Virus record (IMG/VR): IMGVR_UViG_3300017706_000575
Coordinates: 1 to 52,184 of that record
DNA length: 52,184 bases
Reading direction: 5' to 3' (one strand)
Origin: a virus
The notes below the pieces were generated by a model. That model did not search any database and was not told the DNA's origin. It saw only the letters and a list, made by a program, of their open reading frames with translations. Both the position numbers and the translations under genes were made by a program. This document shows, piece after piece, positions 382 through 52,042 of this stretch (position 1 is the first letter of the stretch; each line of letters opens with the position of its first letter).

Positions 382-400
382 TTCTCTTTGGTGTTAAAGG

Positions 401-474
401 TGGACCCTACAGGACTTGAACCTGTGACCTTTTCATTATGAGTGAACTGCTCTGACCAACTGAGCTAAGAGTCC
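401..474 (-). tRNA. tRNA-Met (CAT)
   Basis: Read on the minus strand this folds as a full cloverleaf. The acceptor arms GGACTCT and AGGGTCC pair with one G-T wobble, the D-arm is GCTC/GAGC, the anticodon loop is CTCATAA and the T-arm is ACAGG TTCAAGT CCTGT. The discriminator is A and CCA is not encoded. The anticodon CAT means Met, or Ile2 if the C is modified to lysidine. It directly abuts the Leu tRNA. Confidence 0.9.
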
Positions 475-563
475 TGGTAGCCGGAGTGGGACTTGAACCC
501 ACACGGACATTACTGTCCAAAGGATTTTAAGTCCTTCATGTCTACCAATTCCATCATCCGGCC
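475..563 (-). tRNA. tRNA-Leu (TAA)
   Basis: This is a class II tRNA on the minus strand with a long variable arm (GGACAGTAATGTCC), as expected for leucine. The acceptor GGCCGGA pairs with TCCGGCT, the anticodon stem-loop is AAGGA CTTAAAA TCCTT, and the 3' end reads A plus an encoded CCA (475-477). TTA is a preferred leucine codon in this AT-rich phage. It is the only one of the three tRNAs with an encoded CCA. Confidence 0.9.
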
Positions 564-568
564 AACAG

Positions 569-642
569 TGATCCCACAAGGACTTGAACCTTGAACCTAC
601 AGCTTAGAAGGCTGTTGCTCTATCCAATTGAGCTATAGGACC
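569..642 (-). tRNA. tRNA-Arg (TCT)
   Basis: The minus-strand cloverleaf has acceptor GGTCCTA pairing with TGGGATC (two G-T wobbles), D-arm GCTC/GAGC, anticodon stem-loop ACAGC CTTCTAA GCTGT, and T-arm CAAGG TTCAAGT CCTTG. The anticodon TCT reads AGA, the arginine codon used almost everywhere in the late genes here. CCA is not encoded. Confidence 0.9.
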
Positions 643-34570: not shown

Positions 34571-36802
34571 ATGATTCCAACTAACTCCAGCACAACTACA
34601 AATGGTTGTGATAATATATCATCCAATTGTGTTATTTGGCAGGGGCCAGATATTGCTTGTATAGATCTTTGCCATGGAGATACTGTAAGTGACGTAATTG
34701 CAAAATTAGCTACTGAACTTTGTGATCTAATTACAAATGGTGTTATTGCAAATCCAAGTTTGGAAGGGTTAGACCTTACCTGTCTTAACATTCCTGGCAT
34801 AACTCCAACAACTTTAGTTCCTGTTTTACAGGCAATGATTACACAAATTTGTAAAAATGAAGTGTCGTCACAATCTGATGATGGTAGAAAAACACAAGTA
34901 CAAGCAGATTTGCCAGTACTTACTTTACCAGGTTGTTTAGAATATGATGATGCTAATGGTAATAGAGTTACAGAATTACGCTTAGATTTATTTGCACAAA
35001 AAACTGCACAGCAAGTATGTCTCAATCTTGCAGATATACAAGCTGCTCAAATTACGTTAGCTTCACACGGACAAGACATTGCTGAATTACAAGCATGTGT
35101 TCTTCCATGTGATGGTGGGGTAGTAGAAGCACAAATAGTACCAACTTGTGTTAGTACTGTAGGAACTTTAACAAATGTCTCTACAGTTTTATTAGCATTA
35201 GAAATTAGATTTTGCGCATTAGAAAATGCTGTTGGATTACCTTCAGTAATTAATAGTGCTATATCTCAATCTATTATTACAGGATCTTATATTACTTTAA
35301 CTAACAATGCAGTTAGTTATGGTTCTATAACAGGATGGAATAATAGCACTACAAATTTAGCTCAAAGCATGCAAAACGCATGGGTAGTTATAGATGATAT
35401 GTATAGTGCTATTACAAATATTAAAAATAATTGTTGTCCATCAGGATGTGATGGTGTAACATTTGGATATACAACTACTAACATACTTTCAAACGGAGAG
35501 ATTACAGGTTTAAACTTTAATTTCCAAGGATCTACAATACCTGCAGCGTTTAATGATTGTGCAGGAAGCACAGTTATTACAATTACAGATGTGTCTAATA
35601 ATGTTATTACACAAACTGTTAATGTGAGTTCTTTACAAACAGTTTCAGGTGGAATAAATGTTTCTTTACCTACAATAAATACCAATCAAGATTTTACTGC
35701 TAGTGTAGCATTTTGTGTAACAGATGGAGCTGACACATGTTCAGATACTATATTATCAACAATAAATGGAGTACTAGCTTGTCCTCCAACTATTACTGTA
35801 ACACAAATTTCAGGTACAGGAGCAACAGTTTCTTTTGTTAATTTAATTGGAACGACAGCAGTATATACAATTGATATATTAGATCCATCTAATAATGTTG
35901 TTGGAACATTTGTACAAAATTCTCCAGGAACAAATGTATCTCATGTTTTTACAGGTTTAATACCTGGAACTACTTATACTGTTAGGCTTACTGTTGCTCA
36001 AGGCGGTGCAACCCAAGTATGTCCTAATACACAAGCATTTAGCACATTAACTGCAGATGCAGATTGTGACCAAGGAATGGATGTAGCATTTATAGTAGAT
36101 TATTCTGGTAGCATGGGTACTGATATTAATGCTATTAAAAGTGGTATAGCAGGTGTTACTTCAACTATTATAAATGAATCTTCTCCTAATGATTATAGAT
36201 TAAGTTTAGCATTAGCAGATGAGGGACCTACATCAGTACCAAATTATAATACATCCGTTAGTTATGTAGCATTACCTGCTGCACAAAAAGTTATTAATAC
36301 GGGCTCTTCCTCTTTTCAGTTTATTACTGCAATGGAAAAATTTGCAACTAATAATGTTACAACATTTACAGCTCAATTAAATAAAATAAATACAGGTGCT
36401 CCAACTGCAGATATGCCATTGGGTAGCGGTGTAGGTATACCTGAACCAGTAGATATGGCAATTGGTTTGACAGTAGAAGCTAATCAATTTTTAGGAGCAT
36501 TTAGATCGGGTGTTGCTAAATATTTAATTATTATAACTGATGCTTTACCAAGTGGAGATGATGATACATTTGATGCAAGTGATGTTTCTAGATTGAATTC
36601 ATTACAAGTGACATGTTCATTAGCAGGAATTAAATGTTTTGTTTTAGGAGGTGGAGTTAATCAAACATTTACCCAAGGTGGTGTTACCACATATCCATGG
36701 AGGAGTTTTGCTCTAGGAACTGGAGGTAATTGGAATGTTAGTCCATCACCTGCTTCAATTTCTACTGAAATAGTAAACGGTTGTGCACCACCTGCACCAT
36801 AA
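34571..36802 (+). CDS. Tail protein with fibronectin III and von Willebrand A domains
   Basis: A 743-aa protein. Residues 1-110 carry a phage tail module (CVIWQGPDIACIDLCHGDTV, then SDVIAKLATELCDLI). Residues about 404-490 look like a fibronectin type III domain (FTGLIPGTTYTVRLTVAQGG). Residues 505-740 are a von Willebrand factor A domain whose metal site (MIDAS) has D510, S512 and S514 in DYSGSMG, an inner strand VAFIVD, and D657 in YLIIITDALPSG. Such domains bind ligands through a divalent ion, mostly in adhesion. On a virion it could bind host glycans or proteins. Confidence 0.82.
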   Translation: MIPTNSSTTTNGCDNISSNCVIWQGPDIACIDLCHGDTVSDVIAKLATELCDLITNGVIANPSLEGLDLTCLNIPGITPTTLVPVLQAMITQICKNEVSSQSDDGRKTQVQADLPVLTLPGCLEYDDANGNRVTELRLDLFAQKTAQQVCLNLADIQAAQITLASHGQDIAELQACVLPCDGGVVEAQIVPTCVSTVGTLTNVSTVLLALEIRFCALENAVGLPSVINSAISQSIITGSYITLTNNAVSYGSITGWNNSTTNLAQSMQNAWVVIDDMYSAITNIKNNCCPSGCDGVTFGYTTTNILSNGEITGLNFNFQGSTIPAAFNDCAGSTVITITDVSNNVITQTVNVSSLQTVSGGINVSLPTINTNQDFTASVAFCVTDGADTCSDTILSTINGVLACPPTITVTQISGTGATVSFVNLIGTTAVYTIDILDPSNNVVGTFVQNSPGTNVSHVFTGLIPGTTYTVRLTVAQGGATQVCPNTQAFSTLTADADCDQGMDVAFIVDYSGSMGTDINAIKSGIAGVTSTIINESSPNDYRLSLALADEGPTSVPNYNTSVSYVALPAAQKVINTGSSSFQFITAMEKFATNNVTTFTAQLNKINTGAPTADMPLGSGVGIPEPVDMAIGLTVEANQFLGAFRSGVAKYLIIITDALPSGDDDTFDASDVSRLNSLQVTCSLAGIKCFVLGGGVNQTFTQGGVTTYPWRSFALGTGGNWNVSPSPASISTEIVNGCAPPAP

Positions 36803-39370: not shown

Positions 39371-40042
39371 ATGTCAACAATAGCACAAACAATATCAAGA
39401 ATTAGAGGTCAGGTTAAAGCTGAAGTTCAAGATGCTTTTGTTACAGATAGATATATTTATAGTTTAATAGAAAAGTTTGCTCAAGTATTAATGAGAAGAC
39501 AAGACTATGCTAATAAACTTATGAAGTTCAATGCTGTATGGAAAGCCTTACCTTATGTTGAGTTAATAGATGTAGATAAGATAGAAGCTGGATGTTCTGG
39601 AATCCAAAGTGGTTGTACAATAAAACGTACAAAACTTAGATTACCATCAATGATTGAAGGCTACTGGGGACCGCTTATACGTACTGTAAGCTCTATAGAT
39701 GGTTCTCAAGAGCTTCAAGCAACTCAACCGGGTACATATACTTCAATGACTAAAACCACGTCATTTAAGTACAATACAACAAGATATTTTTGGTGGCTAG
39801 ATGGATATATATATTCTCCTAATATAGAATGGGATGCTTTAAAAATAGAAGGTGTATTTAATTCTGACATTACTAAATGGAATTGTGATGAGGAAGACGA
39901 TTGTACACCACGTTATGAACAACCAATTTATATTCCAGAAGCATTATTTGCAGAGATTGAACAACAAGTTATAAATGTTATGATGAATACTATGAAAATT
40001 CCTGCAGAAGATTCAGATAACAAAATTAATATTAATAGATAA
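39371..40042 (+). CDS. Tail tubular (P22 gp4-like) protein
   Basis: A 223-aa protein. AQTISRIRGQVKAEVQDAFV, SLIEKFAQVLMRRQDYANKL, then CSGIQSGCTIKRTKLRLPSM and IEGYWGPLIRTVSSIDGSQE match the conserved tail tubular protein of crAss-like phages. It probably forms a ring just below the portal. The four-cysteine-like pair CSGIQSGC is a conserved hallmark. It shares one base with the next gene. Confidence 0.85.
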   Translation: MSTIAQTISRIRGQVKAEVQDAFVTDRYIYSLIEKFAQVLMRRQDYANKLMKFNAVWKALPYVELIDVDKIEAGCSGIQSGCTIKRTKLRLPSMIEGYWGPLIRTVSSIDGSQELQATQPGTYTSMTKTTSFKYNTTRYFWWLDGYIYSPNIEWDALKIEGVFNSDITKWNCDEEDDCTPRYEQPIYIPEALFAEIEQQVINVMMNTMKIPAEDSDNKININR

Positions 40043-40998
40043 TGGGAGTATCAAATAAATATAGAACCTTTACCTCATTGATGGAAGATGTTTCTATTGA
40101 TTTTTCTACATATGCGTTAGAAGGATTAATTGAACCACAGCAACTTATTAAAGTAGCAACAAGAGTTAACTATGATCTTGGATTGAGAATACATAGAACT
40201 AAAGAAGTTATTATTGATATTGAACATGGAAGAGGTCAATTGCCCATGGATTTTGCATATTTAAATTATGCATTTTTATGTGGTGATTATAAGATTAATG
40301 CAACAATGCCATCAGGGACACATGTAGAAACATTTAATGATGTCCCATATGTGCCTGCTCCTGGTGAGTCTGGACCTTGTGATGATCCAAGTTGTAAAGA
40401 CGTTTGTGTAATTGAAACATGTGATGGCAAAAATAGCCATCAGCTAGTTCAAAGAATAGGACCCAATCAGTTTAGAACTTTTGATACATGGACTCAATTA
40501 AGGATTCAAGATGTTAATGATACAGTATGCTATTGTCCTGCATTGGGTGCACAGGCACCTGATATTGCACAAATAGAAGATGGTTTTTTAGTTACAACAT
40601 TTAGAACGGGAAAGGTATATTTAAGTTATCAAGGAGCTATGGAAGCACCTAATGGTGACTTGTTAGTATTAGATCAACCATATTGCAATGAATATTATGA
40701 ATATGCTTTAAAACAAAGAATATTAGAAAACATGATTTGGCAAGGAGAAAGCGTTAGTCAACAGTTAGGTTTAGTTGAGACTAGATTGAGGGCGGCTAGA
40801 AACAATGCTTTAAGTTTTGTTAATACACCAAACTTCCAGGAAATGCAAAAAGTGTGGACTATGAATAGAAGAGCACAGTACCATAATTATTATAACATGT
40901 TTTTAAGTTACGCACCAGTAAATCCAAGAGTGGCTCCAATAAGAGGTAACTCATTATCTGGATCTAATAGTGGTAGCAATGTAACATCATCATGCTAA
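40042..40998 (+). CDS. Tail ring or connector protein
   Basis: A 318-aa protein located between the tail tubular and muzzle genes, as in other crAss-like genomes. YALEGLIEPQQLIKVATRVN, GRGQLPMDFAYLNYAFLCGD and VYLSYQGAMEAPNGDLLVLD are typical. A Cys-rich insertion (CDDPSCKDVCVIETCDGK) around residue 113 may bind zinc or hold disulphides. The helical C-terminal part (YNEYYEYALKQRILEN-like) is as in phage neck proteins. Probably a ring of the tail. Confidence 0.75.
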   Translation: MGVSNKYRTFTSLMEDVSIDFSTYALEGLIEPQQLIKVATRVNYDLGLRIHRTKEVIIDIEHGRGQLPMDFAYLNYAFLCGDYKINATMPSGTHVETFNDVPYVPAPGESGPCDDPSCKDVCVIETCDGKNSHQLVQRIGPNQFRTFDTWTQLRIQDVNDTVCYCPALGAQAPDIAQIEDGFLVTTFRTGKVYLSYQGAMEAPNGDLLVLDQPYCNEYYEYALKQRILENMIWQGESVSQQLGLVETRLRAARNNALSFVNTPNFQEMQKVWTMNRRAQYHNYYNMFLSYAPVNPRVAPIRGNSLSGSNSGSNVTSSC

Positions 40999-41015: not shown

Positions 41016-44000
41016 ATGGCTAAGCAAAATAGAAACTCTAAGACAAGTACATCTGTAATTACTAATTCATTCATAAAAGGAATGAATAAAGATATTACAC
41101 AGTCTATGGAACCAGCACAAAGTTGGTGGCATGCACGTAATGCTGCTAATAATTCTACAGATGGTGACTTAGGTGTAATAGGTAATGAGCCTTCTAATTT
41201 GCAATGTGGAGTTATTCCATATACAATTATTGGTGCAATACATAGATTTGGTGATGAATGGATAATTTATTCAACTGATGATGTTAATTCTGAAATTGGC
41301 AGATTTGATGATAGTGAGTGTAAGTATACAACTATTGTAAATGACCCTTGTTTAAATTTTAACAGAAAATATTTAATTACAGGTGCAGCAAAAGAAAACT
41401 TTGATTGCACTTGGGCAGTATATTGGGATGATGGAAATAATCCATCACGTTATCTAAATGTTGATGATGTTCCTTATAAGCAATATATAAGTTCTGCTCC
41501 AGGAGATCCTTGTATAGTATATAGTGATATAGAACCAAAAGAATTAGACTGTGAAAAAATAAGATTAGCTCCTTTACTTGATACACCTTGTATTAGTTTA
41601 ACAAAAAATGTTGATGGGGGAATGCTGAATAATGGTAGTTATCAAGCATTTATTGCATATACAGAAAATGAAATAAAGGTTACAGATTATATAGGTGTAT
41701 CTAATGTTCAATCATTATGGAGTCATGAAGGAAGCGGTGGTTCTTTAGATATTTCAGTTTCTAATTTAGATACTGATTATGAGTTTTATGAGTTGACATT
41801 GTTAATTAGACAACAAGGTCAAGTATTTGCAAAACGTATAGGTTTATATAGTACGCAGCAGCAAAACATAAATGTAGATTTCATTAGTGATGAATTAATA
41901 GCTGTTGATTTAAAGATAATTCCTATGCGTAGCCCTGCTTATGAGAAGTCAGAGGCAATGTATGTTGTTAATGATTATTTAATTAGACAAGGACCAACTG
42001 AACAATTTGATTTTAATTATCAACCTATTGCAAATGAAATCAAAGTAAATTGGGTTGCAAATCAAATAGATTCTCAGTACTATCATATAGGTGGTAACAA
42101 AACAGGTTTTTTAAGAGATGAACAATATGCTTTTTTTATAAGATGGATTTATAACACAGGAGAAAGATCTTCATCATATCACATACCGGGCAGAGCACCA
42201 GAACTATATAATGTTGCAACTCAACAATTTACAAATGTACCAGGCCCTGATGTTTATTATGAAAATGAAAATATAATTAATCCCAATGCATTAAATCCTA
42301 CCGGAGAGCCTTTATATAAAATATTTAATACAGGAGATATACTAGCCCAAGGTTTAAGTGAAGTTCAAGAAGACGGATCTTTAGTTATTGGAAGAGGTAA
42401 AATGGGATATTGGGAATCTACAGAAAGATATCCTATCAACAAACCTGATATATGGGGTGATCTATGCGGTCTTCCTATTAGACATCATAAGATGCCTACT
42501 GAAGAAAGAGGTGGTTCAAATTCACCATTACACATTAGCACTACTGCTGGAGATCTTATAAATTTATTAGGAGTAGAATTTACTAACATAGGCAGACCAA
42601 AAAATAATGATGGATCTTATATTCAAAATGTAGTAGGTTATGAAATATTAAGAGGTTCAAGAGCTGGAGCTAAATCAATTTTGGCAAAAGGTTTATTTAG
42701 GAATATGCGTAAGTACAATGTTCCTAATGCTGAAAATTTAATTGGTGGAAGTGTAACAGGGTTGTATGCTAATTATCCTTACAATGATTTAAGACCTGAT
42801 ATGTATTTTTGGGATAAAATAACACCACCTGGTAATCCATTATTTGAACCACTTAAAAGAACAGAGAGTTGTGACAATCTTACTGAATCAATTCAAGATT
42901 TTCCACCTTTAGGGACTCCAAATTCAGGAACAGATGGCTATTCTAAAAAAGTATTTACATTTTCTTCACCGGATTTAATGTTTACTAAGCCTTTTTTAGA
43001 TGCTTATGAAACTAGAATTTATGGGCAACTAGATGGCAGACAATCAGGTAATTTTATACCATCAGAAGATCATCCACAGTTTAAATTACTTAGGAATAGT
43101 TCAGCACTAATGGGTGCTATTATAGGTATTGGTTATGCTATATCTCAAGTCCGAGGTGAAACATCTGAAGAGATGACTTCATCTAAAATGCGTTATCAAT
43201 CAACTGGTGACTTTGCAGGAATAGCTGCAAATGCTGTAGCTAACAATATAGCAATTGCAGTCCCTCCATTTCCAATACCTGTAGCTGCAGGAGCTATAGT
43301 TGGTATGCAACAAGGAACTTTAGCAGCTGGTCTAGCTGATATATGGGCCTTTGGTGCTGCACAGGGTGGTATAGATAATTTTGTTCAAAATACTAATGCT
43401 GCTGTAGGATTGCTTCCTGGAACAGAGGCAGGTGATTACAAACTTACAATAAAAAGAAATAGCCCGATTTCTAATTTTCCCAATGCATTAAAAGCTGTTG
43501 TAGGTATTTTTACTTCAGGAGCAAACATTGCTATTGGAGGGAATGAAATAATAGATTTGATTTACAATTTAGTTAAAAAATCTAGTTTTGTTTTAAAATA
43601 TAATTCAGCAGGTTTCTTTAATAAATTTAGAAAAAATAACATTAACGATACATTTAGATTTAAAAATACAGATTCTAATTATTTAGGTTCTTCATTTCAA
43701 ACTTTTAATCAAGGTGAATATAAAATAAATAATTTATTTAGACCATCTACAGTTGCTGTTGCATTGGAGAAAGATTTACAAGATCCTGCAGTTCAAGATA
43801 GATCAAGATTTACTGTTGGAGGGGAAGTAGATCTAGGTGGTGGTTCTGGTCAAGCTACTCCTTTTGGAGATACGTATTTAGAAAAGCCTTCTTCTGAAAG
43901 ACAAACTAACATATCTGCTTTTTATGGAGCATTGAAGTTTAATTTTGATAATCAATACGGTCAGTTAAGTGGAATAAAACAAGTTCCAATGAGAGGCTGT

Positions 44001-47000
44001 GTTGAATTACTAGATCCAACAAAACCTCCTCAATTTTTGTATTCTTCTAAAGCTATATTTGCAGGAGATGTATATATAAATAGATATACAGAGAAAGTAA
44101 TAATGCCAATTTTTGCTCAATATTTATTAGGGCAACCAGATGAGTATACTTATGATTATTCTCAACATGTTAATATACCATATCCAAGATTTTGGTTAAA
44201 CTCTCAAAAGTTTGACATGACTAAGATAGGTAAATTTATTGGAAACCCAATTACAGCTATTGCTTCTCTTGGTAATGGTTTTTTTACCGATTTACTACCT
44301 AATGATTTATTTTATTTAGATAGAGGCCAAAATAGTTGCCAGAATGCTTTTGGTGCTATTTTTAATAATAATGATCCTAATCCAATGTTTGCTATGAGAT
44401 TTGCATATATGTATTCTCATTCAAATGGTATCTTGGATTTCTTTGTAGAATCAGAGATTAATTTAGCTCAAAGAGATTGGGAAGATACAAGAGCAAGACA
44501 AATATATAGTGTTTATAATTATAATGATAGAGAGGAATTATTTCATGCTCAAATAGAAAAAGTAGATAATTTTTATAAGTATGATGAATCATTAAGTATA
44601 GGAAAATTTCCAACTCAACTTTCAAGTTTTGGAGAAGTTCAACCATTATATTATGATCCTTATGTTGCAGCTAATTGTTATGTGAGTAGACCTAAAAGAT
44701 TAATATATTCTTTGCAAGCACAAGAGGAAGCAAGAAAAGATTTTTGGAGAGTATTTTTACCTCTTAATTATAAAGACTTTAAAAATAAAGTAAGTGTAAT
44801 TAAACCCATAAATAAAAACGGAGCAATAGTTTTCTTTCCTTATTTATCACCTCAGATGTTTCCAGGAACAGATGTTTTAAAAACTGGATTAGATACAAAG
44901 ATAACAATTGGAGATGGTGGATTATTTGCACAACCCATGCAAAATATTGCTAATGCAGATCTTTCAAATGAATATGGATCTAATGAAAGTTTAAGGAGTG
45001 CTATGAATACTCCTCAAGGTTTATTCTTTATTTCACAAGCACAAGGAAAAATATTTCAATATGCGGGTAGAGGATTAGATCCTATATCTAATAGAGGAAT
45101 GAAGTGGTGGTTTAATAAATATTTGCCATCACAACTAGTTAAGCAATATCCTGATTTAGAATATTCTGTTTTATCTGATAATCCAGTTATTGGAGTTGGC
45201 TGTCATACAATATATGATGCCAATGATGATATTGTTTACTTTATGAAGAAAGACTTTAGAGTAAAGAAAGAATATATAAGCAGTGTATCTTATACAGAAA
45301 AAAGAGGTTTTACAGTAAGACTTGATACTGATGGGGGTAAATATAGTTTTCCTATTCAAATAGGTGATCCATTATATTTTGATGATTGTTGTTGGACTAT
45401 AAGTTATGATCCAAAAGCAAAAGCTTGGATATCTTTTCATGATTGGTGTCCTGAATTAGCATTACCAAGTATAAATCATTTTTTTACTACTAAGAGTATT
45501 GAAACTGATGAGCCGCAGTGTCCACCAGGATATACATTTAATGGTGCAACAGGACTATGTGAATTAGTTGTAAATGAAACTGAATTGTCAACTGTTACTG
45601 TTAGTGAATTAAATTCAATTGTAACAGGAGGTTCTCAAGATTGTTTATTAGATATTGTAATAGCAATGGATGATTCAGGTAGTACGGGTGGTACTAATCC
45701 AGGATCTATTGGAGCTGCTCAATTAACTTGGTTAAATTCATTTTTAACTAATCCTGCTATAACTGGGCCAATGGCTGCAGGAGATATGCAAATAGGTTTT
45801 ACTAAATGGAATTCTACTAGCACAGCTTATCAAATACCTTATCTTTTAGGTACATACAGTATGAGTAATACTGTAACACCAACGCAAGTTAATAATTGGT
45901 ATACTACTAATTGGTGTGTTAATCCTGGGTGCGGAACAAGTGTACCACTTGGATTGGCTAGTGCTGAGAATTGGCTTAATAACAAAGCTTCTAGTCAACT
46001 AGGTGATAGAACTGCACAACCAAACTTTAAACAGATTATTATTTTAATTACTGATACTACCAGCAACCCTGGAGCTATTGGGTGTCCGTATCAAGCAGTG
46101 GGTGTATCACCTTCATCAACAGGTCCTGCAAATCAAAATGTATTTGCTTTATTTTGTGGTACTGGAAGTAGTACACCATCTAACCCACTTGTATTAGGTA
46201 ATATTACTTGTACATCTGGTCCTGTTAATGTAGATGGTTATCAATTTGGTATTGCCGTTAGTAATCCAGCAGGAATAGATGTTGTTGCAGATACAATTGC
46301 AACAAGTGTTTGTTCTCTTCCATTTGAATGTAATTGTGCACCAGGATATACCACGGTTTATTTAGATCCTGTAACAGGAACTTATACTGCACCTACAGGA
46401 GTATGTGATGATATTACACCACCTATTTGTAGAAAAGTAGAATGTGCTTGCCCAACATCACCTCCAAATTTTCTTACAACAATAACAGGGACATGTGATG
46501 ATGTTTATTTAACAGGTGATCCTGATTATGTAAATCCAGATCCACAAGTTTGTGATTATTATTTAAAATTAACTACTCCAGCTAGTTTTAAATATGGTAC
46601 GTTATGGAGACATAATGTTAGATGTGATGATTTTGCAAATTTTTATAATGTTAGTTATCCATGGGAAGTTGAACTTGTAGCTAATAGTGGACAACAGGTT
46701 AATACTGTTAGAAGCATGGAATATCAATTAGAATGTTATGTCTATAAAGGAGATATGGGTAATGCATGTAATGATGATAAGTGGGAAGATTTAGATTTTA
46801 ATTTTGATCAATCTATAATTTATAATAATGAACAAGTATCAGGATTATTACAATTAACACCTACACCATACAATCAACCTCTTTTAAATTTAACTTATCC
46901 TATAATTGGTACTAGTAGCATTGAAATTTTATGTTCTAAAGTTGAACAGAAATATAGATTTAATCAATTTTGGGACATAACTAATGATAGAGGAGAGTTT

Positions 47001-47210
47001 ACTATTGCTGAGCAACCTATATGGAAAACACAGCCAAATGGATATATAAAAGATTTAAATGCAATTAATTTAAATTATAATAAGCCGCCATTGCAACATA
47101 AGAAGTTTAGACATTACTATACTAACATAATATTACGTAGAGTTAATTCTTCAAACAGAAAGATGTTGTTAAGATTAAATAATAGTAAATTGTTAACATC
47201 CCTTAGATAA
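41016..47210 (+). CDS. Giant tail stabilisation (muzzle) protein with inserted von Willebrand A domain
   Basis: A 2064-aa protein. The N-terminus (ITNSFIKGMNKDITQSMEP and WWHARNAANNSTDGDLGVIG) is the signature of the crAss-like stabilisation protein that forms the tail muzzle. The conserved body resumes at the end (FNQFWDITNDRGEFTI, about 1983). Between them lies a vWA domain at about 1545-1765: D1552, S1554 and S1556 in DDSGST, and D1680 in IILITDTTS form the MIDAS metal site. Cys-Pro-Gly-Tyr motifs (CPPGYTFNGATGLC at about 1501; CNCAPGYTT at about 1771) flank it like linkers. It shares one base with the next gene. Confidence 0.85.
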   Translation: MAKQNRNSKTSTSVITNSFIKGMNKDITQSMEPAQSWWHARNAANNSTDGDLGVIGNEPSNLQCGVIPYTIIGAIHRFGDEWIIYSTDDVNSEIGRFDDSECKYTTIVNDPCLNFNRKYLITGAAKENFDCTWAVYWDDGNNPSRYLNVDDVPYKQYISSAPGDPCIVYSDIEPKELDCEKIRLAPLLDTPCISLTKNVDGGMLNNGSYQAFIAYTENEIKVTDYIGVSNVQSLWSHEGSGGSLDISVSNLDTDYEFYELTLLIRQQGQVFAKRIGLYSTQQQNINVDFISDELIAVDLKIIPMRSPAYEKSEAMYVVNDYLIRQGPTEQFDFNYQPIANEIKVNWVANQIDSQYYHIGGNKTGFLRDEQYAFFIRWIYNTGERSSSYHIPGRAPELYNVATQQFTNVPGPDVYYENENIINPNALNPTGEPLYKIFNTGDILAQGLSEVQEDGSLVIGRGKMGYWESTERYPINKPDIWGDLCGLPIRHHKMPTEERGGSNSPLHISTTAGDLINLLGVEFTNIGRPKNNDGSYIQNVVGYEILRGSRAGAKSILAKGLFRNMRKYNVPNAENLIGGSVTGLYANYPYNDLRPDMYFWDKITPPGNPLFEPLKRTESCDNLTESIQDFPPLGTPNSGTDGYSKKVFTFSSPDLMFTKPFLDAYETRIYGQLDGRQSGNFIPSEDHPQFKLLRNSSALMGAIIGIGYAISQVRGETSEEMTSSKMRYQSTGDFAGIAANAVANNIAIAVPPFPIPVAAGAIVGMQQGTLAAGLADIWAFGAAQGGIDNFVQNTNAAVGLLPGTEAGDYKLTIKRNSPISNFPNALKAVVGIFTSGANIAIGGNEIIDLIYNLVKKSSFVLKYNSAGFFNKFRKNNINDTFRFKNTDSNYLGSSFQTFNQGEYKINNLFRPSTVAVALEKDLQDPAVQDRSRFTVGGEVDLGGGSGQATPFGDTYLEKPSSERQTNISAFYGALKFNFDNQYGQLSGIKQVPMRGCVELLDPTKPPQFLYSSKAIFAGDVYINRYTEKVIMPIFAQYLLGQPDEYTYDYSQHVNIPYPRFWLNSQKFDMTKIGKFIGNPITAIASLGNGFFTDLLPNDLFYLDRGQNSCQNAFGAIFNNNDPNPMFAMRFAYMYSHSNGILDFFVESEINLAQRDWEDTRARQIYSVYNYNDREELFHAQIEKVDNFYKYDESLSIGKFPTQLSSFGEVQPLYYDPYVAANCYVSRPKRLIYSLQAQEEARKDFWRVFLPLNYKDFKNKVSVIKPINKNGAIVFFPYLSPQMFPGTDVLKTGLDTKITIGDGGLFAQPMQNIANADLSNEYGSNESLRSAMNTPQGLFFISQAQGKIFQYAGRGLDPISNRGMKWWFNKYLPSQLVKQYPDLEYSVLSDNPVIGVGCHTIYDANDDIVYFMKKDFRVKKEYISSVSYTEKRGFTVRLDTDGGKYSFPIQIGDPLYFDDCCWTISYDPKAKAWISFHDWCPELALPSINHFFTTKSIETDEPQCPPGYTFNGATGLCELVVNETELSTVTVSELNSIVTGGSQDCLLDIVIAMDDSGSTGGTNPGSIGAAQLTWLNSFLTNPAITGPMAAGDMQIGFTKWNSTSTAYQIPYLLGTYSMSNTVTPTQVNNWYTTNWCVNPGCGTSVPLGLASAENWLNNKASSQLGDRTAQPNFKQIIILITDTTSNPGAIGCPYQAVGVSPSSTGPANQNVFALFCGTGSSTPSNPLVLGNITCTSGPVNVDGYQFGIAVSNPAGIDVVADTIATSVCSLPFECNCAPGYTTVYLDPVTGTYTAPTGVCDDITPPICRKVECACPTSPPNFLTTITGTCDDVYLTGDPDYVNPDPQVCDYYLKLTTPASFKYGTLWRHNVRCDDFANFYNVSYPWEVELVANSGQQVNTVRSMEYQLECYVYKGDMGNACNDDKWEDLDFNFDQSIIYNNEQVSGLLQLTPTPYNQPLLNLTYPIIGTSSIEILCSKVEQKYRFNQFWDITNDRGEFTIAEQPIWKTQPNGYIKDLNAINLNYNKPPLQHKKFRHYYTNIILRRVNSSNRKMLLRLNNSKLLTSLR

Positions 47211-50200
47211 TGAGAAACAAAAAAAGCATAGGATTACCAAATGGCCCAAATGAGTTTCTCAAAGATATAACTCAGTATATATCTGTAGAAGGTTATAAGC
47301 GTTATAGTGAAGATATAAACAACCCTTACAATATTATTGAGTCAGGCTATATTACTATGGAAGATGTAGATTTTCCTGTTAAGGGTACAGACAACTTAGG
47401 TAACGAACAAATAATGATGCCTGGTATGAACTATCAGTTTCCAGGAGATAGTGTCTTAGAAGTGCCCATGGCTCAAGAAGGCATTGAAGTACCATTAAAC
47501 CGTGGTGAAGTATTTAATATACCTAGAACAATGGGTTATGAAGACGGTAAAATGGTTCTTCAAGATAAACCTATATATGATGGTATGCTTGATGAAGTTA
47601 CTGTTACCCCATACACTTCAAACCAAATGTTGTATAAAGATTTCATGACTGCTAAAGCTACAGGTGGACTAAAACCTGTATATCCGTTGTTTGATATAAT
47701 GACTTTAGGTTTAAAAGCTCCTCTGACTGCTGGTGCTAAAGTTATAAAGGCAGGTATTAAAAAAGCACCTTCTAAAATAAATCCTAAATACTATAATCCT
47801 AATACGCTAGCAAAGGGAAATCCTAACACTATGTATAGAGAGATTGGCAAAGATGCTTATCAGGATTTTGCAAATAGTGGACTTGTAAGAACTAAAGCTG
47901 AAATTACAGATAATCCTATATTAGGGTTAGTTAAGACACAAAAAGAAATAAAAGATGTTCTACGTTTTAATAAAGAGTATGGGCAATTTCAATATAGACA
48001 CCCTACAGACTTTAGAGCTCCTTTTTTTAGCAGAGGTAAAACAACTATATTAAAAAAGGGGGATCCTGATTACTTGATTCAAACTCGTCCTGATAGAGTT
48101 GGACCTGATAAGTTTTCTAGTGCACAGTGGAATATTCTTCATGGTAATCAGCAGCCTCCTGCGGGTGGGTTTGGAATAATGGATCCTATGTACAGAGACG
48201 CAGATAACTTTGATGTATTTAAGAAAAACTGGTGGTCAGGTTATAAACAAATTAAACAAGATGGTGGAGAGCAAGGAATTCAAGTACCTAAAAGAAATGG
48301 AGTTAGAAAAAATTCTGATGGTACTGAGTCAACACACCTTATGGCTACTGAAACTTTAGATGGTAAAAACTGGTTTTCATTTCCTACTTTATTTCAAAAT
48401 GAAGATAGTACTTGGTTAGACATGTCTGACAAGCCTTGGATGGAAGCATATAAAGAAGCAATCAAAAGAGGTGAGGTTATAGAGTTTGGTACAGATAAAG
48501 ATGCTGCTATTAAATTTGGTGAAGGTTCTTGGAAACCTAAAGCTCAAGTTGGTCAAGAAGTAATAAGATCAAACAGAGATCCATATGAGTATAAAAGAGA
48601 AGCAGATAAATTTTATACAAGAAAAAGAGAAGGAGAATGGGAGTCAGAAGAACAGCCAGATTGGACACTAGCATCTGACAATGCAGAGAAGGCAATTAGA
48701 GAAAAAATATATGATGAGGATGTTTCTGACTCAGGAGCAGAAGATGGAAAAGCATTTAGAGAAATTGGTAATGCAAAAACAATTCAGGAAAATATTCAAG
48801 CACTTGATACCTCATCCTATGGTCTTAGGGTTATTTCTTATCCAATTGGACATGAAGTAAATCCTCCTGGACATATTGAAGCTGTGTTGTTTGACAAAAA
48901 AACAGGTAAGTTGATAAATAAAGTACCCGGTACTAAATTTAAAGGACATATAAATAGATGGGCAAAGGAAGGAAATAAACCTGTAGTAGAAAGCAATTAC
49001 AAAGGTGATAAGAATGTACAAGTTGTAGATTTAAGATTACCTGAGCAAGAACTCAAAGATTTTTTAGTTCAAGCGCAGGGTTTTTTACCTAACACTGAAG
49101 GTAAGATTCACAAAAATTTAGGTTTATCAAAAAATAAACTTCCTATTTCTTCTAGTAATAATCCAAAACAATATGGCATCATAGGTTCTAATTGTGCTAC
49201 AGGTATGTGTTTAGGGTTGGGTCTAGATCCAGATTCTCCAGAAAATCAAACAGCAGGTATAACTGATCCAAATAAAGTTATGGATAATATTCTAACAAAC
49301 TTTAGTAACTACTATGATTCAGAAAAAGATTATAGAGGAAATAAGGTAAGTAAGAGAGAAGGTATTAGAAAACTTATTTCTAACAAATTAGAAGTAGAAG
49401 GTAACACAAGAGCTGCTACAGCAATTGTGGATTATTTGGATGGTTTGGATGGAAAAGAGGCTAAGAAAACATTAGAAGAATTATCTGAAAATCCTATGAT
49501 ACAGAAGATGATTAAATCACCTAATTTAAAAGCATCAATTAAACCTTTATTAAATGCACCAATTACACAAGTTATTGATGCTTATAAAAAAATACCAGAC
49601 GGAACCTTTAACGCTTTAATGGAAGCTGGTTGGGAACAATACCCAAATCAATACATTAGAGAAAATACACCATTTGATTTTTCTGGAGAAGGTGTAGATA
49701 ATATAATACCATGGTGGGAAAACAATGTTATAAATCCTGTAGGAGAAGCTGGATCTGATGCTATAAAAAGCGTTAGAGATTTTTTTGGTTTTAAAGAAGG
49801 AGGAAGTGTTTCATGGCAGTTTAAAGGTAAATCATATTCAGGAACTTTAATACCTGGTATGGAAACTGAGAATAACAGATATGCTAGAACTCACAATGGC
49901 AAAATAAAAACACTACCTAAAGGTCAAGTTGGAAAAGAAATTAAAACAGGTAGAGGTACTCCAGGACTTCTTGATAAGCCGTATTTGGATCCTGGAAACA
50001 TTAATCTTATTTATGATGAAGATGAAGTTTATGAATCAGTATTTGATCCTAGAATTAGAGAAAGCAGAAGAGCAAATAAGTTAGCTAAAGAAGAATATGA
50101 ACGTAAGGTTCAGAAAAGAAATAAAGACATAAAATCAATAGAAGAAGCAAAAGCCTTATACAGAAATGTATGGTATGATGATTTTAAAGATACAACTTTT

Positions 50201-52042
50201 AAAACTAGTGCAGAAAGAAAAGAATGGCAAGAAAACAATCCCAGATGGAAAGCAGCAACTGATACTTTGGGGCGCTATGCTGCAGCTCCAAAAGGATTAA
50301 ATGCTTCTGTTAGTAATGCAAGTGGTTTTGAATATACACCATATTTTAATCCTGAAGCAAATTTAACTGATCTTTATCCTGAAAAACCTTTGTTAAAACT
50401 TCCATATCCTGATATTAAATATAATCTATCTAATCTACCAGAAGGTGTAGATGAAACAGAATTTAGAAAATGGGTTAATTATTATTATCCTGATTATGCA
50501 GTAGAAAATGATATTAGTTCTACAACTCCTTCAGAAAAAGAAAATGACTTTATTAAAAGTGCATGGTATGAATTGGGTAATCAGTATGAACCTTTTAAGA
50601 AACTTGAGATTAAAAAGTTAGAGCAACCTGCTTTAAAAGATAAACCTCAACTATCTAATTTTACAGAAACTAAATCAAAAGGAACTTTAGTATCAACTGG
50701 AATTGGTGATGGTAGAGTTAATGTAATTGATCTGGATACAGGTGGTGGTTTTGGAACATATGATACACCTGAACAAGCCCGTATTGCTATGATTGAAGCT
50801 TATACAGATGGTTATAGTTTAAGTAATCCTGAAATTGCTAATATTTCAGCAGAAGACTTAGGAAACCTTTATGATGTTGCAGATAAACAGCCAGCATATA
50901 GAGCTAATAATAGACCGCTTACCAATTATGAAAAGATTCAGGCAATGAAAAGAAAGATGTCTGAGGGTGGTCAATATCAAACTGGTGGTGAGCATACAGT
51001 ATCAGAAGGAGAAACGTTTTATGGTATTGCTAATAAAAATAAAATATCATGGAAGGATTTAGAAGCCTTTAATCCTAATATTGATATTAATGCTCTTAAG
51101 AAAGGACAAACTATTAATCTTTCTGCACAACCTACAAAAACTAAAAAAACTACTGAAGAAAAACGTGAACCAACATCATGGAGCGATTATATAAATCCTT
51201 ATAATTGGGGAGTTACTGATAGAGATGATGATGGCTCATATAATCAAGCTTTTAGAGCTGCAAGAAATGCTGGTGAAGATGAGTTTATGTGGTATGGTAA
51301 AAGATACACAACAGAACTTGATAAAACAGATGTTGCAAAAGAAAAAGAACCAGTAAAGAAAGAAGTTAGCAATTATAGTTTTCAAGAATATCAAGATGAC
51401 TTAAAAGCTCAAGAAAATCTTTCATTGAAAGGATGGGATCCTAAAAGACAATTGTGGTTTCCAACTCCAGCTCCAGAAGAAAATGGAGGTTTTGATATTG
51501 GTTATGGTCATAAGATTAAAAAAGGTGAAAATTTTTCTAAAGGTTTAACAGATGATCAAGTCAACAATCTTTTTGCAAAAGATCTTAATGTTAAATTTAA
51601 AGCAGCAAAGTCAACATTTAATAGACAAGGCCTAAATAGAAGTTGGGATGAGTTAAATGAACAAGAGCAAATATTACTTGGAGATTATCAATACAATGGA
51701 GTTTTAGGTGATTTTGAAAAATTGATGAAAGCTGTTGCGAATAAGGATAAAGATTCAATGCTTAAAGAATATGTAAGATATCAAGGCAAAGAAAAATTGG
51801 GAAGAAGAAATGACTGGACTAAATCTTATATAGATAGTGAAATAAATTATAAGAAAGGTGGAGAACCTAATCCATTAACTATTTATAGTAATTATATAAA
51901 TGGTGATTATGATGGTACAGATTTAGAAAATCAAGCTATAAAGATCTATGATAGACTTAATAGAATTCATTATGGAGATGCTAAATCATTAGGTATGTCT
52001 CCTGTAAATTATATATTAACTCATGTTGTAGCTAAAGCTTAA
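47210..52042 (+). CDS. Multidomain virion protein with LysM and lysozyme-like domains
   Basis: A 1610-aa protein. Residues about 360-445 hold a conserved virion segment (HLMATETLDGKNWFSFPTLF, AIKRGEVIEFGTDKDAAIKF). Residues about 540-700 have GHIEAVLF (H555) and GSNCATGMC (C662), a His-then-Cys order as in permuted NlpC/P60 peptidases. Residues about 1263-1306 are a LysM wall-binding domain (HTVSEGETFYGIANKNKISW). Residues about 1395-1545 are lysozyme-like (E1402, GFDIGYGHKIKKGE; D1429 stands where GH24 has Thr). It probably opens the wall during DNA entry. Confidence 0.75.
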   Translation: MRNKKSIGLPNGPNEFLKDITQYISVEGYKRYSEDINNPYNIIESGYITMEDVDFPVKGTDNLGNEQIMMPGMNYQFPGDSVLEVPMAQEGIEVPLNRGEVFNIPRTMGYEDGKMVLQDKPIYDGMLDEVTVTPYTSNQMLYKDFMTAKATGGLKPVYPLFDIMTLGLKAPLTAGAKVIKAGIKKAPSKINPKYYNPNTLAKGNPNTMYREIGKDAYQDFANSGLVRTKAEITDNPILGLVKTQKEIKDVLRFNKEYGQFQYRHPTDFRAPFFSRGKTTILKKGDPDYLIQTRPDRVGPDKFSSAQWNILHGNQQPPAGGFGIMDPMYRDADNFDVFKKNWWSGYKQIKQDGGEQGIQVPKRNGVRKNSDGTESTHLMATETLDGKNWFSFPTLFQNEDSTWLDMSDKPWMEAYKEAIKRGEVIEFGTDKDAAIKFGEGSWKPKAQVGQEVIRSNRDPYEYKREADKFYTRKREGEWESEEQPDWTLASDNAEKAIREKIYDEDVSDSGAEDGKAFREIGNAKTIQENIQALDTSSYGLRVISYPIGHEVNPPGHIEAVLFDKKTGKLINKVPGTKFKGHINRWAKEGNKPVVESNYKGDKNVQVVDLRLPEQELKDFLVQAQGFLPNTEGKIHKNLGLSKNKLPISSSNNPKQYGIIGSNCATGMCLGLGLDPDSPENQTAGITDPNKVMDNILTNFSNYYDSEKDYRGNKVSKREGIRKLISNKLEVEGNTRAATAIVDYLDGLDGKEAKKTLEELSENPMIQKMIKSPNLKASIKPLLNAPITQVIDAYKKIPDGTFNALMEAGWEQYPNQYIRENTPFDFSGEGVDNIIPWWENNVINPVGEAGSDAIKSVRDFFGFKEGGSVSWQFKGKSYSGTLIPGMETENNRYARTHNGKIKTLPKGQVGKEIKTGRGTPGLLDKPYLDPGNINLIYDEDEVYESVFDPRIRESRRANKLAKEEYERKVQKRNKDIKSIEEAKALYRNVWYDDFKDTTFKTSAERKEWQENNPRWKAATDTLGRYAAAPKGLNASVSNASGFEYTPYFNPEANLTDLYPEKPLLKLPYPDIKYNLSNLPEGVDETEFRKWVNYYYPDYAVENDISSTTPSEKENDFIKSAWYELGNQYEPFKKLEIKKLEQPALKDKPQLSNFTETKSKGTLVSTGIGDGRVNVIDLDTGGGFGTYDTPEQARIAMIEAYTDGYSLSNPEIANISAEDLGNLYDVADKQPAYRANNRPLTNYEKIQAMKRKMSEGGQYQTGGEHTVSEGETFYGIANKNKISWKDLEAFNPNIDINALKKGQTINLSAQPTKTKKTTEEKREPTSWSDYINPYNWGVTDRDDDGSYNQAFRAARNAGEDEFMWYGKRYTTELDKTDVAKEKEPVKKEVSNYSFQEYQDDLKAQENLSLKGWDPKRQLWFPTPAPEENGGFDIGYGHKIKKGENFSKGLTDDQVNNLFAKDLNVKFKAAKSTFNRQGLNRSWDELNEQEQILLGDYQYNGVLGDFEKLMKAVANKDKDSMLKEYVRYQGKEKLGRRNDWTKSYIDSEINYKKGGEPNPLTIYSNYINGDYDGTDLENQAIKIYDRLNRIHYGDAKSLGMSPVNYILTHVVAKA

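Follow-up and report, generated by a model that had tools for sequence, protein, structure and literature searches.

An exchangeable, predicted von Willebrand A domain in the muzzle protein of a crAss-like phage

The very large protein that plugs the tail of a crAss-like phage carries, on a cysteine-rich stalk, a predicted von Willebrand A (vWA) domain, a kind of domain that bacterial and animal adhesins use to hold on to ligands through a metal ion. Related phages lack this domain, carry very different versions of it, or have another kind of domain in its place, so that it looks like a plug-in part for recognising bacterial surfaces. We have analysed a virus record of 52,184 bases (IMGVR_UViG_3300017706_000575; hereafter the window, meaning the whole stretch), in which an open reading frame of 2064 residues matches the Pfam family crAss_MUZ (PF25731, E 6.5e-28, 97.8 bits against a cut-off of 27) as well as PHROG virion structural proteins, and has 77 relatives on viral contigs. 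The gene lies directly after CrAss_Ring_2 (39371-40042) and CrAss_Ring_1 (40042-40998), with Crass_capsid and P22-like portal genes upstream. The hexameric assembly at the tail end, which has been determined for phiCrAss001 only (PMC10172136), was not examined here. The gene that follows, at 47210-52042 (+), encodes 1610 aa with LysM and a tail-lysozyme-like C-terminal part and is likely a cargo or cell-wall enzyme, and three adjacent tRNA genes (Met, Leu, Arg) are found at 399-642 (-). The features relevant to the following are:

41016..47210 (+), crAss-like muzzle protein gene, 2064 aa
45255..45365 (+), slot B (residues ~1414-1450), short in the window, able to hold a vWA domain or a metalloprotease-like insert in relatives
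45468..45494 (+), upstream strand of slot A, SINHFFTTK (residues 1485-1493), conserved across relatives and a strand in the AlphaFold2 model
45495..45644 (+), N-terminal Cys-rich stalk (residues 1494-1543, CPPGY..C), ending in C1543, with near-invariant cysteines
45645..46313 (+), predicted vWA domain (residues ~1544-1766)
45669..45683 (+), MIDAS motif 1, D1552-x-S1554-x-S1556
45936..45938 (+), MIDAS motif 2, T1641
46053..46055 (+), MIDAS motif 3, D1680
46314..46595 (+), C-terminal Cys-rich stalk (residues 1767-1860, C.CxPGYT...PPICRKVxCxCP...), with invariant cysteines
46596..46616 (+), downstream strand of slot A, GTLWRHN (residues 1861-1867), with W(R/K)HN conserved in vWA-bearing relatives and W.H in more distant ones, a strand in the model
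34571..36802 (+), second tail-region protein with fn3 and a C-terminal vWA domain (DYSGSM)

The first-pass annotation had described an intact MIDAS metal site in this protein, with D1552, S1554 and S1556 and with D1680 in ILITDTTS, flanked by Cys-rich CPxGYT motifs, and this observation is confirmed. The residues are where they had been placed, the middle MIDAS residue, which had not been named, is T1641, and the CPxGYT/Cys motifs lie on both sides of the domain and are among the most conserved columns of the module. The DxSxS pattern by itself has been rejected as evidence, as the same pattern recurs in the conserved core as an unrelated KYDESLSPSKF near residue 1200. Sequence comparison of the window segment alone is likewise weak. 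Pfam VWA reaches only 11.9 bits against a cut-off of 23.8, which reflects a limit of sensitivity rather than a structural trait and lowers the sequence claim but not the fold claim, and sequence searches of the PDB with the whole protein and with the domain returned no match. However, of 41 homologous segments 19 match VWA_2 and 12 match VWA at E<=0.1, and inserts of relatives pass the VWA cut-off, with 36.9 bits for slot A of L068 and 35.2 and 42.5 bits for slot B of L353 and L355 (L numbers denote the individual muzzle loci fetched for comparison). Fold prediction of this region had been proposed beforehand as the check on the assignment, and an AlphaFold2 model of the window segment with 40 homologues gives a mean pLDDT of 92.3 and the strand and helix order expected for the Rossmann-like alternating beta/alpha fold. 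Foldseek finds 204 PDB chains at E<=1e-3, among them the SpaC pilus tip adhesin, ANTXR2 (TM 0.69 on target length, E 1.1e-6), vWF A3, the integrin alpha2 I domain, TRAP and BatB, at about 9-17% sequence identity in the fold matches. The case for a vWA domain therefore rests on the fold, on the family members that Pfam does recognise, and on the conservation of the MIDAS.

In 59 non-redundant slot-A vWA domains, D1552 is conserved at 97%, S1554 at 97%, S1556 at 98%, T1641 at 93% and D1680 at 93%, against a median column conservation of 0.46, which points to selection on the metal site and not just on the scaffold, and 53 of the 59 keep all five residues (S or T allowed). The remaining six lack a full MIDAS in the alignment, of which L035 and L051 are clearly degenerate. 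The median pairwise identity is 33% in the domain and 66% in both flanks. Cysteines C1543 and C1766, at the start and the end of the domain, are both present in 53 of 59. The A domains of vWF have cysteines at these positions, and a closing disulfide as in those domains is inferred.

The domain sits in one fixed place, a beta-hairpin (SINHFFTTK | LWRHN), hereafter slot A. In relatives without the domain, such as L048 and L058, the chain runs from HFFTTK straight into WRHN, and the hairpin is also closed directly in L001 and L002. The same place is a tight hairpin in Leptolyngbya phage Lbo-JY46, in csAssE-Sib and in phiCrAss001 gp44, where it lies around residue 1234 (EFYAFK|DGKMWEQ). These three phages and Cellulophaga phi17:2 were considered as possible carriers and rejected, as slot A is empty in all four. 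As the Ig and crass-fold parts of gp44 end at residue 1021 (IG2 and crass fold, 318-1021; PMC10172136), the slot maps to the section that returns to the beta-propeller and is not an insertion in the distal crass domain. By strand alternation slot A would lie on the face opposite the IG1 insertion and may thus face away from the tip, which is an inference made without coordinates. A second slot (B) lies one loop upstream.

Over 377 loci with 108 distinct muzzles, slot A holds a vWA domain in 76, is empty in 14, holds the stalk only in 8 and holds another domain in 10. As the loci were fetched by similarity to chosen queries, these counts are not frequencies. The contigs are metagenomic assemblies. 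The N-terminal stalk is kept in the vWA-less relatives L020, L052, L053, L055 and L057, and the C-terminal stalk is kept in stalk-only relatives as well. Seven of the other slot-A inserts (L031, L143, L158, L161, L307, L310 and L323) form one non-vWA family on the same Cys-rich stalk, about 40-69% identical, whose model (pLDDT 75) shows weak fold matches to lectins and PA14 adhesins (Pleurotus lectin, Flo1, Epa1, Marinomonas PA14), so that lectin-like is to be taken as a lead and not as a result. A third type of cassette in slot A, of ~440 aa, is found in L050 (12603-14267) and L074 (12588-14252), unidentified, without a Pfam match above cut-off and with weak PHROG matches to virion structural proteins. 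Slot B is usually short, but holds vWA in L068, L075 and L245, together with vWA in slot A, and in L266, which has the stalk only in slot A. A canonical vWA with Ig-like segments is present there in L352, L353, L355 and L361, assigned by Pfam for L353 and L355 and by close similarity for the others. Slot B of L345 (11399-13981) holds an 861-aa insert with a reprolysin-type zinc metalloprotease motif, HExxHxxGxxH (HELGHVIGAKHEH), above the Pfam cut-off (28.2 bits against 27), an enzyme-like module built into a muzzle. The muzzle of the cultured Cellulophaga phage phi17:2_18 (L242:7602-14471) has an unidentified insert of ~317 aa in slot B, which looked vWA-like by eye, but a profile comparison gave nothing. 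The protein at 34571-36802 (+) matches Pfam fn3 and, below threshold, VWA, and its C-terminal vWA, with DYSGSM and TDALPSGDDD, is homologous to the slot-B vWA of the L353 group (blastp to L353 slot B, 34.5%, E 1.9e-21). Its relatives near other muzzles often carry a D.SGSM/D.TGSM motif too (29 of 87), and vWA modules thus seem to be shared between two virion proteins.

On a core tree of 89 muzzles the vWA domain has been lost or gained at least 11 times. L052 lacks it but is 91% identical in the core to L056, which has it, and L020 and L053, from different metagenomes, lack it too. A search for direct repeats at the deletion junction of L052 against L056 gave 8 of 27 bases alike and no convincing repeat. 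In pairs such as L238/L296, L007/L027 and L005/L013 the identity falls from about 80-95% to 11-35% only inside the slot and recovers after it, although L238/L296 and L073/L184 also differ in slot B or elsewhere in the core. Nearest neighbours conflict between flank and vWA in 19 of 59, but between the two flanks in only 3 of 59 (p 2e-4, which is only a guide since the rows are related). The upstream and downstream flank trees share 24 of 56 splits with each other, but 7 and 5, respectively, with the vWA tree, and vWA data placed on the upstream tree lose 1175 lnL units, whereas downstream data lose 223, a difference that is inflated by the greater variability of the vWA alignment. Some vertical signal is retained, as vWA identity correlates with flank identity (rho 0.70). 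One may therefore suppose hyperdivergence in place, in which the domain evolves so fast, in an arms race, that its tree becomes unreadable, with losses but little swapping. This concerns how the domain varies rather than what it does, and could hold together with the functional reading given below, but we consider it unlikely, because nearest neighbours are discordant across lineages, e.g., the L039 vWA is 63% identical to that of L056 but 34% to that of its core sister L004 (87% core), the vWAs of L047 and L207 are 68% identical, and entirely different sequence families occupy the same slot.

The interpretation offered by the first-pass annotation, a metal-dependent host-binding module inserted on the muzzle at the tip of the tail, is partly supported. 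A comparison with other crassviruses had been named in advance as a means to support or refute an inserted domain, and the vWA has been found absent from other crassviruses and from some close relatives, while the Cys-rich stalks that flank it survive alone when the domain is gone. The placement at the tip is unproven and needs correction, since the slot is in the propeller section and the domain may project from the side, and the single domain that had been described is one of several alternative contents of two slots. We consider it most likely, with a probability of roughly 0.6, that the segment at 45.5-46.6 kb is an adhesin-type cassette, in which a vWA domain with a complete MIDAS is carried on a Cys-rich stalk that buds out of a beta-hairpin of the muzzle's propeller and binds a surface ligand in a metal-dependent way. 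The computations show the vWA fold, the conserved MIDAS, the one fixed slot, the presence or absence and exchange between lineages, and the replacement by other domains. It is inferred from these that six copies per virion display the domain, if the muzzle is hexameric like phiCrAss001 gp44, that a divalent ion in the MIDAS coordinates an acidic group of a host-surface protein or glycan, and that binding adds adhesion or specificity and may help to signal the muzzle to open; metal binding, ligand binding, host contact and position in the virion were not assayed. In this view, exchange of the cassette would retune which surface is recognised without touching the gate and ring-joining parts. Against it stand that no ligand, metal or host is known, the location of the slot in the propeller section, the six vWA copies without a full MIDAS and the several muzzles without any domain, by which it is not essential in every phage, and the presence in the same genome of the second vWA protein and of an S74 (endosialidase-chaperone) fibre-like gene, which could be the real receptor binders. 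Genome bins gave no host evidence, as the three bin contigs with relatives (L377, L378 and L379, one of 114.7 kb) carry the labels Pseudomonadales and Campylobacteraceae and are probably phage contigs binned by mistake.

Other roles have been considered. The vWA and its lectin-like replacements might provide general stickiness, holding the virion to capsule, mucus or extracellular polymer around cells without setting host specificity. The lectin-like alternative cassette is in line with this, stalk-only and empty slots in intact genes suit an accessory role, and the vWFa domain of LapA promotes biofilm adhesion rather than recognition of one receptor (PMC9180339), but the strong divergence and exchange of the domain while the MIDAS is kept looks like changing ligand specificity, and we regard this reading as unlikely. 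A structural role, in which the vWA binds a fibre, hub, cargo or neighbouring muzzle subunit in a metal-dependent way and stabilises the tail, would agree with the location in the propeller section rather than in the distal crass fold, and vWA domains also mediate protein assembly in general. It appears less likely still, as close relatives such as L052 keep an intact muzzle gene without the domain and others replace it with an unrelated sequence family, so that an assembly partner would have to change each time. A neutral passenger, tolerated in a permissive hairpin without function, could be suggested by the presence/absence polymorphism and the many contents, but is already disfavoured and very improbable, since the MIDAS residues are among the most conserved positions of an otherwise fast-diverging domain and the reading frame and the Cys stalk are kept.

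Among described systems, phiCrAss001 gp44 (PMC10172136) is a homologous chain encoded after the ring proteins, but has no vWA, and while length variation of muzzles has already been noted in that work, it has been placed in the crass domain and IG2, whereas here it is in the propeller part. The vWA/MIDAS ligand-binding domains of the integrin I domain, vWF A3, ANTXR2, TRAP and SpaC share the Rossmann-type fold and complete MIDAS, but the present domain sits in a phage tail protein. The nearest worked-out design is that of the RTX adhesins AhLap and MpIBP, in which PA14-type CBMs and vWFA domains with adjacent termini, which are ligand-binding domains, bud from split domains and project their binding site outward (PMC12077191). 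The insert in slot A likewise emerges with adjacent termini from a continuous host domain, although the adhesins are secreted bacterial proteins with Ig-like or RTX split domains and not a phage propeller hairpin. Deletion of the vWFa domain of LapA reduces biofilm (PMC9180339). The BACON domain repeats in tail-associated proteins of crAss-like phages (PMC6949934) are putative binding domains that spread partly by horizontal transfer, but have another fold, occur in another protein and form tandem repeats rather than a single-slot cassette. The vWA proteins of haloarchaeal viruses (Hardycor1 and others) are CobT-like or partners of AAA ATPases and not tail proteins, and provide no precedent. 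The module has no match in 50,697 phage records and no PHROG, and no paper joining crAss and von Willebrand domains was found in the open-licence literature searched, so that an earlier description elsewhere is not excluded. Modular exchange of binding domains is well known for phage fibres, but we found no earlier description of it in the ejection plug of a crassvirus and with a vWA domain, an unexpected protein and an unexpected fold.

A more far-reaching possibility, which we regard as doubtful, is that a lineage of environmental crAss-like phages uses two dedicated plug-in sites on the muzzle propeller to acquire and trade surface-active modules (vWA, lectin-like, metalloprotease-like and others). 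The metal-dependent vWA would then act like an integrin I domain, with ligand capture passed through its stalk to the propeller gate to trigger ejection of cargo and DNA, making the muzzle itself a host-range determinant separate from the tail fibres.

The muzzle is the gatekeeper of crassvirus ejection, and how it senses the host is an open question. A conserved metal-site adhesion domain that is traded in and out of one fixed place gives a concrete, testable candidate for the sensor, with defined residues to change and with natural near-pairs of muzzles with and without the domain.
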